Of a stretch of 64,000 nt of DNA, positions 10,346 through 13,662 are shown one piece after another; position 1 is the first letter of the stretch; each line of letters starts with the position of its first letter. Both the position numbers and the translations under genes were made by a program. Under the pieces are notes generated by a model. The model was given only the letters and a program-made list of their open reading frames with translations, was not told the DNA's origin and ran no database searches. The stretch spans positions 513,276-577,275 of the forward strand of contig NZ_FQXT01000004.1 in the NCBI RefSeq assembly GCF_900130045.1, written 5' to 3'. The DNA comes from Leeuwenhoekiella palythoae (GTDB taxonomy: Bacteria > Bacteroidota > Bacteroidia > Flavobacteriales > Flavobacteriaceae).

Positions 10346-11467
10346 TTGAAAAAAATAGCTTTTCTTACCGGGACTCGGGCAGATTTTGGGAAACTGAAAT
10401 CACTTATTCGGGCAGTTCATGATTCAACTGACTTTGCATATGGAATTTTTGCAACCGGAATGCATCTGCTCGAGCAATATGGCCTCACTGTTATTGAAAT
10501 TGAAAAAGCAGGTTTTCAAAATATTGAGCGCTTTCCCAATCATACCTCAGAAGCCACGATGGACCTCACTTTGGCTAAAACTATCGAAGGTTTTTCAGCC
10601 TTCGTTAAAACAGTTGAGCCTGATTTAATAATTGTTCACGGTGATCGGGTCGAAGCGCTGGCCGGTGCAATTGTGGGTTCGTTGAATAATATTTTGGTAG
10701 GTCATATTGAAGGCGGCGAACTTTCTGGAACTGTTGATGAACTTATTAGGCATTCGGTAAGTAAATTGAGCCATATTCATTTTGTATCTCACGAGACTGC
10801 GGCGACACGCTTGGTACAAATGGGCGAACTCGAGAGCAGTATATTCAATATTGGTTCGGCTGATTTAGATGTGTTATTCAGTGAGACCTTACCCAATCTC
10901 GAAACTGTAAAAACTTATTACAACATTCCGTTTGAAAGCTACGCGGTAGTCTTATTTCATTCGGTAACCACCGCGCATCAAGAAACTGCAACGCACGCAT
11001 TTGATTTTGTAGCGGCGCTTCTGGAAGATGATCAAAATTATGTGGTGATATACCCCAATAATGACCGTGGTTCTTCCGCTATTTTAAAAGCGTATCGCCA
11101 ATTTCAAGAGCATCCTCAATTCCGGCTTTTTCCGTCCTTGCGGTTTGAGTATTTCATTACCTTGCTCAAAAACGCGACGTTCTTAGTAGGAAACAGCAGT
11201 GCCGGTATTCACGAGGCTCCCTATCTGGGTATTCCTACGGTAAATGTGGGCAGGCGCCAAGAAAACCGGGACTTACAAACCGACAGCATCATTCACGTGG
11301 ATAATGCTAAAGCAGCTATTTTAAAAGGTATCGCTTCCGCGAAAGCATTAAAGGTTAAACCAAAAGGAACAAAAAGTACTATTACAGCTGCATCTGGATT
11401 TTTGGAAGCGCTAAGAACCGAATCTTTTTGGCAAATAGACCATCAGAAGCAGTTTCGGGATCTTTAA
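10346..11467 (+). CDS. neuC: UDP-N-acetylglucosamine 2-epimerase (hydrolysing)
   Basis: Makes ManNAc from UDP-GlcNAc with release of UDP, the first committed step to Neu5Ac. 373 residues with KIAFLTGTRADFGKLKSLI at the N-terminus, HGDRVEALAGAIVG near 95-108, HIEGGELSGTVDE, RHSVSKLSHIHFVS, and C-terminal FLVGNSSAGIHEAP. These agree closely with SiaA/NeuC of Neisseria and E. coli. The TTG start at 10346 lies nine bases after the previous gene. With neuB and neuA it completes CMP-Neu5Ac synthesis from UDP-GlcNAc. The gene ends three bases before a large palindromic repeat. Confidence 0.95.
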   Translation: MKKIAFLTGTRADFGKLKSLIRAVHDSTDFAYGIFATGMHLLEQYGLTVIEIEKAGFQNIERFPNHTSEATMDLTLAKTIEGFSAFVKTVEPDLIIVHGDRVEALAGAIVGSLNNILVGHIEGGELSGTVDELIRHSVSKLSHIHFVSHETAATRLVQMGELESSIFNIGSADLDVLFSETLPNLETVKTYYNIPFESYAVVLFHSVTTAHQETATHAFDFVAALLEDDQNYVVIYPNNDRGSSAILKAYRQFQEHPQFRLFPSLRFEYFITLLKNATFLVGNSSAGIHEAPYLGIPTVNVGRRQENRDLQTDSIIHVDNAKAAILKGIASAKALKVKPKGTKSTITAASGFLEALRTESFWQIDHQKQFRDL

Positions 11468-11469
11468 AG

Positions 11470-11612
11470 TGTCACTTCGAGTGAATTAAGTGTAGCGATA
11501 GCGAAACTTAATTTGTATCGAGAAGTCATAGTTGTTAGTAAGTTTATAATTTATAAGGGTTCTCGATACAATTTTATCGAGCCCAGGCTCTCAAAAATCA
11601 CTCGAAGTGACA
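11470..11612 (+). repeat. Nested palindromic element, copy A
   Basis: The outer arms are a perfect 15-base inverted repeat: TGTCACTTCGAGTGA at 11470-11484 and its reverse complement at 11598-11612. Inside lies a second perfect 12-base inverted repeat: TTGTATCGAGAA at 11513-11524 and TTCTCGATACAA at 11560-11571. The nested design could fold into a cruciform or a long RNA hairpin. It begins right after neuC and ends 15 bases before the GIY-YIG gene. Confidence 0.9.
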
Positions 11613-11627
11613 AACAAATCCTAATTC

Positions 11628-11918
11628 TTGAAAGTCTATAATGTTTATATTCTAAGATGTCGGGATAAAACCTATTATACCGGTATAACTTCTGATCTTT
11701 GGGAGCGGGTTGAACAATATCAATCCGGGAAGTACAACAATTCTTATACATCTAGCAGAAGACCAATTGAATTGGTTTATTATTGTGAATTTACAGAACC
11801 AGAGTTGGCAATTGAATTTGAGAAGCGGATTAAAAAATGGTCTCAGGCTAAGAAAGAAGCTTTGATTAATGGGGAATTTGAAAAACTACCTAACTTGGCT
11901 AAAAAACGTTTTAAATAA
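11628..11918 (+). CDS. GIY-YIG nuclease domain protein (UPF0213/UvrC-N-like)
   Basis: 96 residues. KVYNVYILRC at 2-11 supplies the GIY strand (here VYI) and YYTGITSDL at 16-24 supplies the YIG strand (here YTG). RVEQYQSG carries the conserved Arg region, and AIEFEKRIKKWSQAKKEALI includes the catalytic Glu and basic helix. The length equals the stand-alone single-domain family often mislabelled as excinuclease C. The start is TTG at 11628. It is bounded immediately on both sides by copies of a nested palindrome. Such proteins can nick or cleave branched DNA, so the palindromes are plausible substrates; this link is inferred. Confidence 0.85.
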   Translation: MKVYNVYILRCRDKTYYTGITSDLWERVEQYQSGKYNNSYTSSRRPIELVYYCEFTEPELAIEFEKRIKKWSQAKKEALINGEFEKLPNLAKKRFK

Positions 11919-12062
11919 TGTCACTTCGAGTGGTTGAAGCATAGCGTTAGCGGAGCTTCAGATGTATCGAGAAGTTTTAGGAGTTATGATGTCTTGAGTT
12001 CACTTGGCTTCTCGATACATTTGCTTTCGGCTTGTGGCCTCAATCAAACACTCGAAGTGACA
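11919..12062 (+). repeat. Nested palindromic element, copy B
   Basis: Same architecture as copy A. The outer arms TGTCACTTCGAGTG (11919-11932) and CACTCGAAGTGACA (12049-12062) are perfect complements. The inner arms ATGTATCGAGAAG (11962-11974) and CTTCTCGATACAT (12008-12020) are also perfect. Both copies share an AGCG(A/T)TAGCG stretch between left outer and left inner arm. It starts at the base after the GIY-YIG stop codon. The centre differs from copy A, so arms are conserved more than spacers. Confidence 0.9.
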
Positions 12063-12087
12063 GTGTTCTAGCTTAATTACGTTTTGC

Positions 12088-12173
12088 ATTGGGCCTCAAT
12101 CAAACATTTAAACTGACAGGCTTCTCGATACACCGGTCTCGACTTGAGGTCTCGACCGACACTCGAAGTGACA
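12088..12173 (+). repeat. Decayed right halves of the nested palindrome
   Basis: After copy B, GGCCTCAATCAAACA recurs at about 12092-12106 and leads to a degenerate outer arm (AAACTGACAG). Then CTTCTCGATACAC (12121-12133) and CACTCGAAGTGACA (12160-12173) repeat the inner and outer right arms with no matching left arms. The 337 bases from 11919 to 12255 therefore hold one full element, at least two partial ones and a short A-rich tandem repeat, with no gene. Confidence 0.8.
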
Positions 12174-12194
12174 GATTTTGATATCTTTAATTTA

Positions 12195-12215
12195 GAAAAA
12201 CGAAAAACGAAAAAC
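12195..12215 (+). repeat. Short tandem repeat, three GAAAAAC units
   Basis: Three perfect copies of the 7-mer GAAAAAC followed by a partial fourth. It sits between the palindrome remnants and the promoter of the next gene. It could be a slippage-prone spacer or just low-complexity DNA. Confidence 0.7.
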
Positions 12216-12255: not shown

Positions 12256-13662
12256 TTGACTTTAGCATCTCAAAAGACCTTAGGAATTGTAATAACAGAT
12301 GGGGTTGGCTTTCGGAATTTTGTGCTGAGTACGTTCTTGACTAAAGCTGCCCGATCTTTTGAAAAAGTAGTTATATTTTCCGGACTCCCATCTACGGCAT
12401 ATCCTGACCTTGATGCGGCGTTTTTTACCATTGTAGAACTTCCTGTTTTTACTGAAACTAAAAAGAATTGGTTTTGGCGTAAACTGAAAGAAGTAGCACA
12501 CCTGCAGAAACATAAATCCAATCCGGGTATTGCAGATAATTACGAGATGAACAAAGCCAAGAGCTGGAGTGCGCACGGACTTTTGGTTCGATTTGTTTAT
12601 GCCGTCAGTTCAATTTTTCATAGCGAAAAGAACATCCTTCGGTATGAAAAGTTCCATGAGCGAAGCTTTGCAGGAGACGCTATTGTAACTAAATACGGTG
12701 AAATTTTAAAAGAGCATGAACCAGATATTTTATTCTTTACACATCAGCGACCACCCTTTATTGCTACTCTGGTCTTTTGGGCGAAAAAGCTAAAGATTCC
12801 TACCGCATCGTTTATTTTTAGTTGGGATAACCTGGCTTCAAAAGGGAGGATGGCCTCAACTTTTGACTACTTTTTGGTCTGGAGCGATTTGATGAAAAGG
12901 GAATTACTTCGGTTTTATCCCTATACTAATCCGCAGGCGGTTTCTATCGTAGGGACTCCGCAATTTGAGCCGTATGTATTGCCAGAATTCGATATGCCAA
13001 AGACTAATTTTCTGGAAGCTTTCGACCTAAATGCTGATGAAAAAATTATGTGCTACAGCTGCGCTGATGCCACGATTGGCCCTAACGATCCGTTGGTGAT
13101 CGCGACTTTGGCTGAAGGTATCCGTTCGGGAGCAATCGATTCGTGTCAGCTTTTGGTACGGACTTCACCGGCAGAAGATGAGCAGCGTTTCGCAGAAACC
13201 AAAACCAAATACCCTGAAATAAAATGGAATCATCCCAAATGGGAACTCACCCGGGAAGGGCATCCCGAGCCCTGGTCTCAACGGGTACCTACACGCGAAG
13301 ACCTGAGCATGCTTAAAGCTATTCTTAAGTTTTGCGATCTGAACGTCAATATGCTTTCAACTATGAGCCTCGACTTTATGTTGTTTGAAAAGCCGGTTGT
13401 GAATACGGCCTTTGGCAATGGCGCTAACGGACTTTACAACGATCAGCGGTTCTTACAGTATGAGCATTATGATAATGTGGTTAAAAGTGGTGCGGTTAAA
13501 ATCGCCAAAAATGCAGAAGAATTGTATACTGCTGTAAACGCATACCTGCGTAATCCCAATCTGGATCTGGAAAATCGCAGGAAGCTTATCGATATGCAGG
13601 TGGGTAAACCTCTTAACGAAACCACTCAAGCTTGTGTACAAGCTTTAAAAAATACTTTATGA
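12256..13662 (+). CDS. Putative GT-B glycosyltransferase, family not recognised
   Basis: 468 residues, no signal peptide. The first half is Rossmann-like with LGIVITDGVGFRN at the N-terminus and DILFFTHQRPPFIATL and FIFSWDNLASKGRM in the middle. The C-terminal half has LLVRTSPAEDEQRF and then LNVNMLSTMSLDFMLFEKPVVN, which occupies the place of the nucleotide-binding S/T-S motif of GT-B enzymes related to capsule and CDP-glycerol transferases. It follows the repeat cassette and its own promoter, and overlaps the next GT4 gene by ATGA. It is one candidate for the missing sialyltransferase, but I see no classical GT42/52/80 signature. Confidence 0.6.
   Translation: MTLASQKTLGIVITDGVGFRNFVLSTFLTKAARSFEKVVIFSGLPSTAYPDLDAAFFTIVELPVFTETKKNWFWRKLKEVAHLQKHKSNPGIADNYEMNKAKSWSAHGLLVRFVYAVSSIFHSEKNILRYEKFHERSFAGDAIVTKYGEILKEHEPDILFFTHQRPPFIATLVFWAKKLKIPTASFIFSWDNLASKGRMASTFDYFLVWSDLMKRELLRFYPYTNPQAVSIVGTPQFEPYVLPEFDMPKTNFLEAFDLNADEKIMCYSCADATIGPNDPLVIATLAEGIRSGAIDSCQLLVRTSPAEDEQRFAETKTKYPEIKWNHPKWELTREGHPEPWSQRVPTREDLSMLKAILKFCDLNVNMLSTMSLDFMLFEKPVVNTAFGNGANGLYNDQRFLQYEHYDNVVKSGAVKIAKNAEELYTAVNAYLRNPNLDLENRRKLIDMQVGKPLNETTQACVQALKNTL

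Follow-up and report, generated by a model that had tools for sequence, protein, structure and literature searches.

How does the gene for a small nuclease come to lie, almost base for base, between two nested palindromes at a boundary of a glycan operon? This question is posed by a locus of Leeuwenhoekiella palythoae, which we analysed within a stretch of 64,000 nucleotides (the window, to which all positions refer) and across related genomes.

A short GIY-YIG gene between two nested palindromes

The left element (11470..11612, 143 bp), made up of two inverted, TGTC-tagged half units, and the right element (11919..12062, 144 bp) have the same perfect outer arms of 14 bp (TGTCACTTCGAGTG/CACTCGAAGTGACA) and the same perfect inner arms of 11 bp (TGTATCGAGAA/TTCTCGATACA). 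This nested architecture, put forward in the original prediction, was borne out by arm searches and by folding: as single-stranded DNA, both elements folded better than their dinucleotide shuffles (z = -9.6 for the left and -6.7 for the right one). The space between them is filled, again as predicted, by a short, single-domain GIY-YIG nuclease gene on the forward strand (11628..11918, 96 aa, TTG start), with a gap of 15 bp on the left and 0 bp on the right, where the palindrome starts one base past the stop codon. A third copy of the palindrome, of which there is only a half (12121..12173; inner arm 12122-12132, outer arm 12160-12173), had been absent from the earlier description; for the stretch around it (12063-12200), folding did not exceed that of shuffles (z -0.08). 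The window contains five exact copies of the outer arm and five of the inner arm, every one of them at this locus. Genome-wide, the exact outer arm occurred in 18 copies, against none for the reversed-sequence control. The insertion directly follows a UDP-GlcNAc 2-epimerase-like gene (10346..11467, forward strand; PF02350, E 3.7e-73), and downstream of it lies a gene without a Pfam match (12256..13662, forward strand), whose counterparts in 13/13 genomes of the genus formed the basis for comparing empty and filled sites.

The encoded protein belongs to the GIY-YIG superfamily (PF01541, E 1.1e-15; 58.1 bits at a cut-off of 22.6), and no other domain was matched in Pfam. Residues Y7, Y17, R27 and E65, which we take to be the catalytic Tyr/Tyr/Arg/Glu, are invariant across an alignment of the 14 palindrome-flanked relatives described below; several orthologues use an ATG start. 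A profile search for related solved structures found the UPF0213 proteins 1zg2 (E 1.2e-16) and 1ywl (E 8e-11) and no others; these belong to the short GIY-YIG family by profile, and their entries are named just hypothetical proteins. The NCBIfam model for group I intron endonucleases, TIGR01453, left the window protein unmatched and scored three relatives at 18.7-22.9 bits, below its cut-off of 56.05. A known defence gene was ruled out, as the PADLOC anti-phage models returned no family at E<=0.01, and so was a known RNA family at the palindromes, as Rfam returned no match at E<=1 between positions 10500 and 13000.

Palindrome-flanked copies form one clade

In the genus of the window, eight copies of the gene with at least 66% identity were found in 7/13 genomes (own included), and all seven copies other than that of the window have the same kind of palindrome on both sides. 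Their sites change: the window copy and five others occupy three different boundaries of one glycan operon, including another boundary of the window's operon in G005 and G006, and the copies of G009 and G012 lie outside that operon. When 79 short GIY-YIG proteins were placed in a tree, for which few columns were available and in which many forks remained unresolved, the palindrome-flanked copies fell into one 14-row clade with a support of 100/100; its rows span seven genera, eight of them coming from the window's genus and two of the remainder (L106/L112) forming a syntenic pair. With a fixed motif set, this palindrome was detected on both sides in 14/14 clade rows and on either side in 0/65 of the other rows. 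Among the former is a clade member that had not been labelled in advance (L089) and turned out to be palindrome-flanked. The pairing noticed at the single locus is thus real, specific and conserved.

Comparing the left with the right element, the two were mutual best matches in 7/13 clade loci (L106, L112, L117, L121, L134, L048 and L059). In the other 6/13, namely the window locus and five others, they were less alike than one of them was to an element of another locus, which points either to an old duplication that has since diverged or to a unit that moved as a whole. Exact arms (cassette arms included; 13 genomes of the genus) numbered 18, 10, 15, 18, 16, 5 and 9 in the genomes with an orthologue, and 0, 2, 14, 1, 0 and 8 in those without a close one (G003 14, G011 8, G002 2, G007 1). 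The proposed link between gene and palindrome therefore holds as a clade-wide pairing and fails as an exclusive one: 13 of the 18 exact arms of the own genome lie away from the cassette, and arms also occur in genomes without a close orthologue, which is half of what had been named in advance as speaking against the link. REP/RAYT systems likewise show gene-less palindrome copies.

Joint presence and absence, and duplicated targets

At the window site, the epimerase-like gene precedes the orthologue of the downstream gene in 11/13 genomes of the genus, G009 and G012 not being syntenic here. Three of the 11 (G000, G004 and G010) are filled, with a gap of ~746-788 bp that contains the gene and palindromes (10, 8 and 7 motif hits), and eight are empty, with a gap of ~54-139 bp, no gene and no motif hit in any of them. 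Hence, palindromes and gene are present or absent together here, and with sites that differ between related species the unit behaves like a mobile one, as had been suspected. A short repeat, ATCTTTAA, lies on either side of the window cassette; it was not visible by eye in G004 and G010, and we attach no weight to it.

The clearest sign that insertion duplicates its target came from a tRNA-Asp site occupied by a more distant short GIY-YIG gene (L090), which could be judged in 14/16 genomes of that gene's genus. Wherever the site was filled (4/4), the region downstream of the tRNA was present in two copies (score 85-185), whereas it was single in every empty site (10/10; score 8.5-22). Two of the four filled genomes have tandem copies of the gene, and one empty genome (G093) seems to retain its first codons. 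Three loci of the tRNA-type branch described below (L105, L113 and L118), each from a different genus, sit at one set of conserved codons where an epimerase-like gene starts, as read from translations, and this gene start is duplicated on the left. Another copy (L114) sits inside what reads as a gene for a four-helix protein. For L106, no empty site was found in the one other congeneric genome compared, where the region is rearranged.

Flank repeats around short GIY-YIG genes

The pair exists as predicted, yet it does not stand alone: it represents one of the subfamilies that make up a large GIY-YIG/REP family. We surveyed 60 genomes, each from another genus, and aligned locally the left with the right 300-bp flank of 60 short GIY-YIG loci from 34 of these genomes. 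The loci derive from the first 67 short rows outside G000, from which two contig-end rows (G060:C41 and G043:C40) were left out, the remaining five being tandem partners within loci already included; one locus lacking a right flank (L130) was dropped from the counts. As controls served 20 long GIY-YIG loci with frames of ~600 aa, which we presume to be uvrC-like from their length, and 40 short four-helix (IVP) genes of the same genome set (the first 40 rows of the listing). Direct repeats with a score>=15 flanked 36/59 short GIY-YIG genes and 0/20 uvrC-like genes, 2/102 neighbouring ORFs, 4/40 four-helix genes and 80/3348 pairs of flanks swapped between genomes (short GIY-YIG vs four-helix: Fisher p 2.6e-7). 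At a score>=30, the counts were 26/59 for short GIY-YIG genes, 0/40 for four-helix genes and 1/102 for neighbouring ORFs. Direct and inverted repeats taken together (45/59 vs 17/40, p 0.0013) were kept as a secondary score because the four-helix control was high as well; its repeats are mostly simple, and tagged hairpins were seen at 0/40 four-helix loci (approximate flank windows). The degenerate short flank repeats of these 23S IVP-like loci (L271-L310), e.g. TAGTGATTAGTGA or TAGTATTAAG, represent a different association.

Two branches stand out among the short GIY-YIG proteins. In the REP-type branch (61 rows), direct or inverted flank repeats were found in 47/61 rows and scores under 15 in 14/61, and no tRNA gene lies within 500 bp. 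In the second, tRNA-type branch (17 rows), a tRNA gene lies within 500 bp in 7/17 rows, direct repeats occur in 12/17, and 5/17 score under 15. L090 is placed on a long branch outside both.

Palindrome sequence follows the enzyme subfamily among close relatives

Enzyme and palindrome match by subfamily. Among 141 REP-type loci, compared pairwise across different genera or genomes, the share of pairs with a flank score>=20 was 0.1% at 30-40% protein identity (2879 pairs), 2.2% at 40-50%, 8.4% at 50-60%, 39% at 60-70% and 84% at >=70% (89 pairs). Flank similarity thus rises with protein identity, i.e. close relatives match strongly and more divergent ones less and less (Mantel r 0.22 for protein vs flank; null maximum 0.086 of 999). 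That flanks are shared through synteny alone was ruled out: after removal of syntenic pairs, defined by similar distal flanks, sharing persisted in 81% of 69 pairs at >=70% identity, in 37% of 291 at 60-70% and in 10% of 393 sampled pairs at 50-60%. Besides, the best flank match of 26 loci tested within genomes was to the same subfamily in another genus over another subfamily in the same genome in 26/26 cases by the maximum, which was taken over unequal numbers with syntenic pairs included, and in 23/26 by the mean.

Tagged hairpins in other phyla

A search with the REP-type alignment confirmed at least 565 relatives, and the record titles of the best 80 include Alphaproteobacteria, Patescibacteria, Elusimicrobiales, Cloacimonadota, Clostridia and Fibrobacter, among others. 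Left and right flanks shared repeats with a score>=15 in 60/79 of these loci (direct in 49, inverted in 44), one locus with a short flank (L184) being excluded here and from the relaxed hairpin counts. Within 300 bp of the gene, 157 hairpins were detected, 90 of which are YGTC-tagged; far from the gene in the same loci there were 138, of which 15 are tagged, over 3.9 times more bases. This corresponds to a density of 3.30/kb near vs 0.74/kb far (4.5 times). At uvrC-like genes, 0/11 hairpins were tagged. Beside the 157 cross-phyla stems, TGTC was the commonest tetramer (70), with CGTC at 20 and GTAG at 3; with the relaxed finder described below, the commonest tail was CCA (60), and at the hairpin nearest to the gene the tag points outward more often than inward (30 vs 15 on the left, 31 vs 11 on the right). 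As a group, these relatives hence show the features of CGTC-REPs, namely a YGTC tag, a CCA tail and an AT stem start.

Tagged hairpins were much rarer in the Flavobacteria set (13/82 near vs 9/177 far). A relaxed hairpin finder, which like the strict one overlooks stems that are interrupted, as they are in the window element, detected tagged hairpins at 53/79 cross-phyla loci (on both sides at 34/79), in 19/61 REP-type rows of the Flavobacteria set, and at 1/20 uvrC-like genes. When one REP pattern was counted in each of six cross-phyla genomes, 7, 4, 6, 116, 3 and 46 copies were obtained; the extremes range from Arenibacter algicola (L174), in which all three copies surround the GIY-YIG gene, to Kordia (L225) with 46 and Omnitrophus (L236) with 116. 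In the former (L174:1560-2400), tens of non-palindromic bases beside the REP appear by eye to be repeated on both sides. Phage and plasmid relatives amounted to 24 and 47 records, respectively, all below 60% identity among the matches listed.

Proposed mechanism and alternative explanations

Judging from sequence comparisons, the palindrome-GIY-YIG-palindrome unit is probably a minimal selfish cassette, whose nuclease would cut its cognate palindrome or target and which host repair would then copy. Each short single-domain GIY-YIG nuclease would be paired with its own TGTC/CGTC-tagged REP palindrome or, in the second branch, with a tRNA or gene-start target in place of the REP. The enzyme may recognize its palindrome in a hairpin or cruciform state and nick or cut it. 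GIY-YIG enzymes hydrolyse DNA and are not known to join strands, so insertion would have to fall to the host: repair of the break might use as template a cassette copy that has the same palindrome on both flanks, whereby the cut site would receive the gene and either side would end up with one target copy. Palindromes that lack a gene could represent remnants, or the same enzyme could have spread them as passive copies, as is thought for REPs and RAYTs. On a wider scale, we lean towards regarding short GIY-YIG genes with TGTC/CGTC REPs as a previously undescribed class of mobile elements across phyla, carrying one gene and duplicating their target, in which the enzyme would co-evolve with its palindrome and constitute the missing enzyme of CGTC-REPs, a sister branch targeting tRNA genes or gene starts.

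Alternatively, the gene might encode a domesticated, host-serving nuclease that processes REP cruciforms in a structure-specific manner and has been retained next to them in a regulatory role. The presumed catalytic columns are intact and 0/8 window-type copies of the genus contain a stop codon, both of which would suit such a role, and published abstracts describe SLX1 and ANKLE1 as GIY-YIG enzymes that act on branched DNA. However, the patchy presence and changing sites of the cassette look selfish, as do the tandem arrays, the insertion of L114 inside an apparent gene and the duplication of targets. Of the 40 short GIY-YIG rows found in the genus, eight contain stop codons; none of the eight is window-type, and they mark decayed copies of the family, which speaks in the same direction. 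We therefore regard domestication as unlikely.

It also seems improbable that a circular or linear REP-GIY-YIG cassette integrates by homologous recombination between REPs, with the nuclease acting as a booster or being irrelevant. Recombination of this kind would yield one palindrome per side and homogenize left and right elements, yet it does not account for insertions at tRNA genes and gene starts that duplicate native target sequence, nor for the same subfamily lying at the same epimerase-like codons in three genera.

Very little favours the notion that a RAYT or IS200-type (Y1) transposase moves the palindromes as it would ordinary REPs, with the GIY-YIG gene as a passenger, although the numerous gene-less copies would fit and GTAG-type REPs are linked to RAYTs (PMC3733652). 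Exact arms are present in genomes without a Y1_Tnp match at E<=1e-3 (2 in G002, 14 in G003, 10 in G004, 5 in G010 and 8 in G011), and the ~1.5-kb flanks of 11 Y1_Tnp loci of the genus, two of them under the cut-off, contain neither arm nor inner motif. Palindrome sequence, moreover, would not vary with the subfamily of a mere passenger. A RAYT as the mover was rejected on these grounds. Finally, that REPs and short genes merely pile up wherever intergenic space is permissive, a view for which one might invoke the 17/40 four-helix genes with some flank repeat, is hardly credible given that those repeats are mostly simple and come without tagged hairpins or strong direct repeats (0/40 vs 26/59 at a score>=30), that chance proximity cannot yield subfamily matching, and that the clade motif counts strongly disfavour it as well.

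Relation to known systems

The selfish cassette favoured here resembles REP/RAYT systems (REPtrons) in that short tagged palindromes surround a single resident enzyme gene and many copies are gene-less; the comparison drawn in the original prediction was apt. RAYTs, too, match their palindromes, as the GIY-YIG subfamilies do here. The two systems differ in the enzyme (a Y1 HUH tyrosine transposase there, GIY-YIG here), in the hairpin tag (GTAG vs YGTC) and in the flanks, which here are often direct repeats with duplicated targets.

CGTC-tagged REPs have been reported without a dedicated transposase (Di Nocera et al. 2013, PMC3733652), and the text of that article contains no occurrence of 'GIY'. 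These REPs agree with the repeats at cross-phyla GIY-YIG loci in the CGTC/TGTC tag, the AT stem start and the CCA tail, and Bradyrhizobium is present in both sets. The window palindrome has a TGTC tag; it is longer than these REPs (stem of 8-9 bp, loop of 4-5, CCA tail) and has interrupted, nested stems over 143 bp. Since relatives in many bacteria each have their particular palindromes as flanks, this widespread repeat class may have found the enzyme partner it has long lacked, and short GIY-YIG nucleases are a strong candidate for the enzyme of CGTC-tagged REPs. Among the matches listed in searches of the open-access literature, no account of GIY-YIG genes with REPs or with target duplication was found.

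Free-standing GIY-YIG homing endonucleases are known from phages (Seg/Mob type). By analogy, the cassette may work like one of these, with putative cleavage as the defining step. In both cases, a selfish gene for a small nuclease lies next to or within a target that is conserved, and decayed copies are present. A specific, conserved target of this sort is found here in the epimerase-like codons, in the palindromes of the clade and in the tRNA-Asp site. The single-domain protein, the long target duplications and the palindromic REP targets set the present genes apart. Should our reading be correct, a protein of ~100 residues together with an oligonucleotide would suffice to test the origin of a common bacterial intergenic repeat, a hydrolytic nuclease would be able to spread its gene with target duplication and without a transposase, and many natural enzyme/palindrome pairs would be at hand for studying how structure-specific nucleases gain sequence preference.

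Other short GIY-YIG loci

The own genome has ten PF01541 matches, and the flanks of the five further short GIY-YIG genes inspected are all different. L002 is flanked by TCGAGCGCAGTCGA repeats and L003 by TTCCGCGAAGGCGGAAA, and L004 has a CCTGAACTTGTTTCAGG-type flank on one side and hairpins of the GCTGAA..TTCAGC type on the other (flank score <15). L005 is flanked by the 3' end of tRNA-Phe with its terminator and L040 by the start of a tRNA-Ala-like gene (flank score <15). At other loci of this genome (L028, L030 and more), small palindromes such as TCCCGA...TCGGGA appear, by eye, as if inserted in the loops of larger hairpin repeats. Tandem short GIY-YIG genes were noted at G003:C1:3602635-3603492 (327-bp period), G065:C13:365450, G069:C3:111158 and G022:C15:34612.

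In tRNA copies near tRNA-type genes (L076, L095, L116, L122, L005 and L251 of G054), one arm is often a GC-rich hairpin, as seen by eye in a tRNA-Asp copy (CCCCAAGTAAACTTGGGG). Close to tRNA-type genes, 24 GC hairpins were counted in 12.4 kb (11/18 loci), and 14 in 57 kb far from them. At L251, L116, L040 and L095, the GIY-YIG frame extends into the tRNA copy and, judged by eye, apparently uses the TAG of the tRNA as its stop codon.
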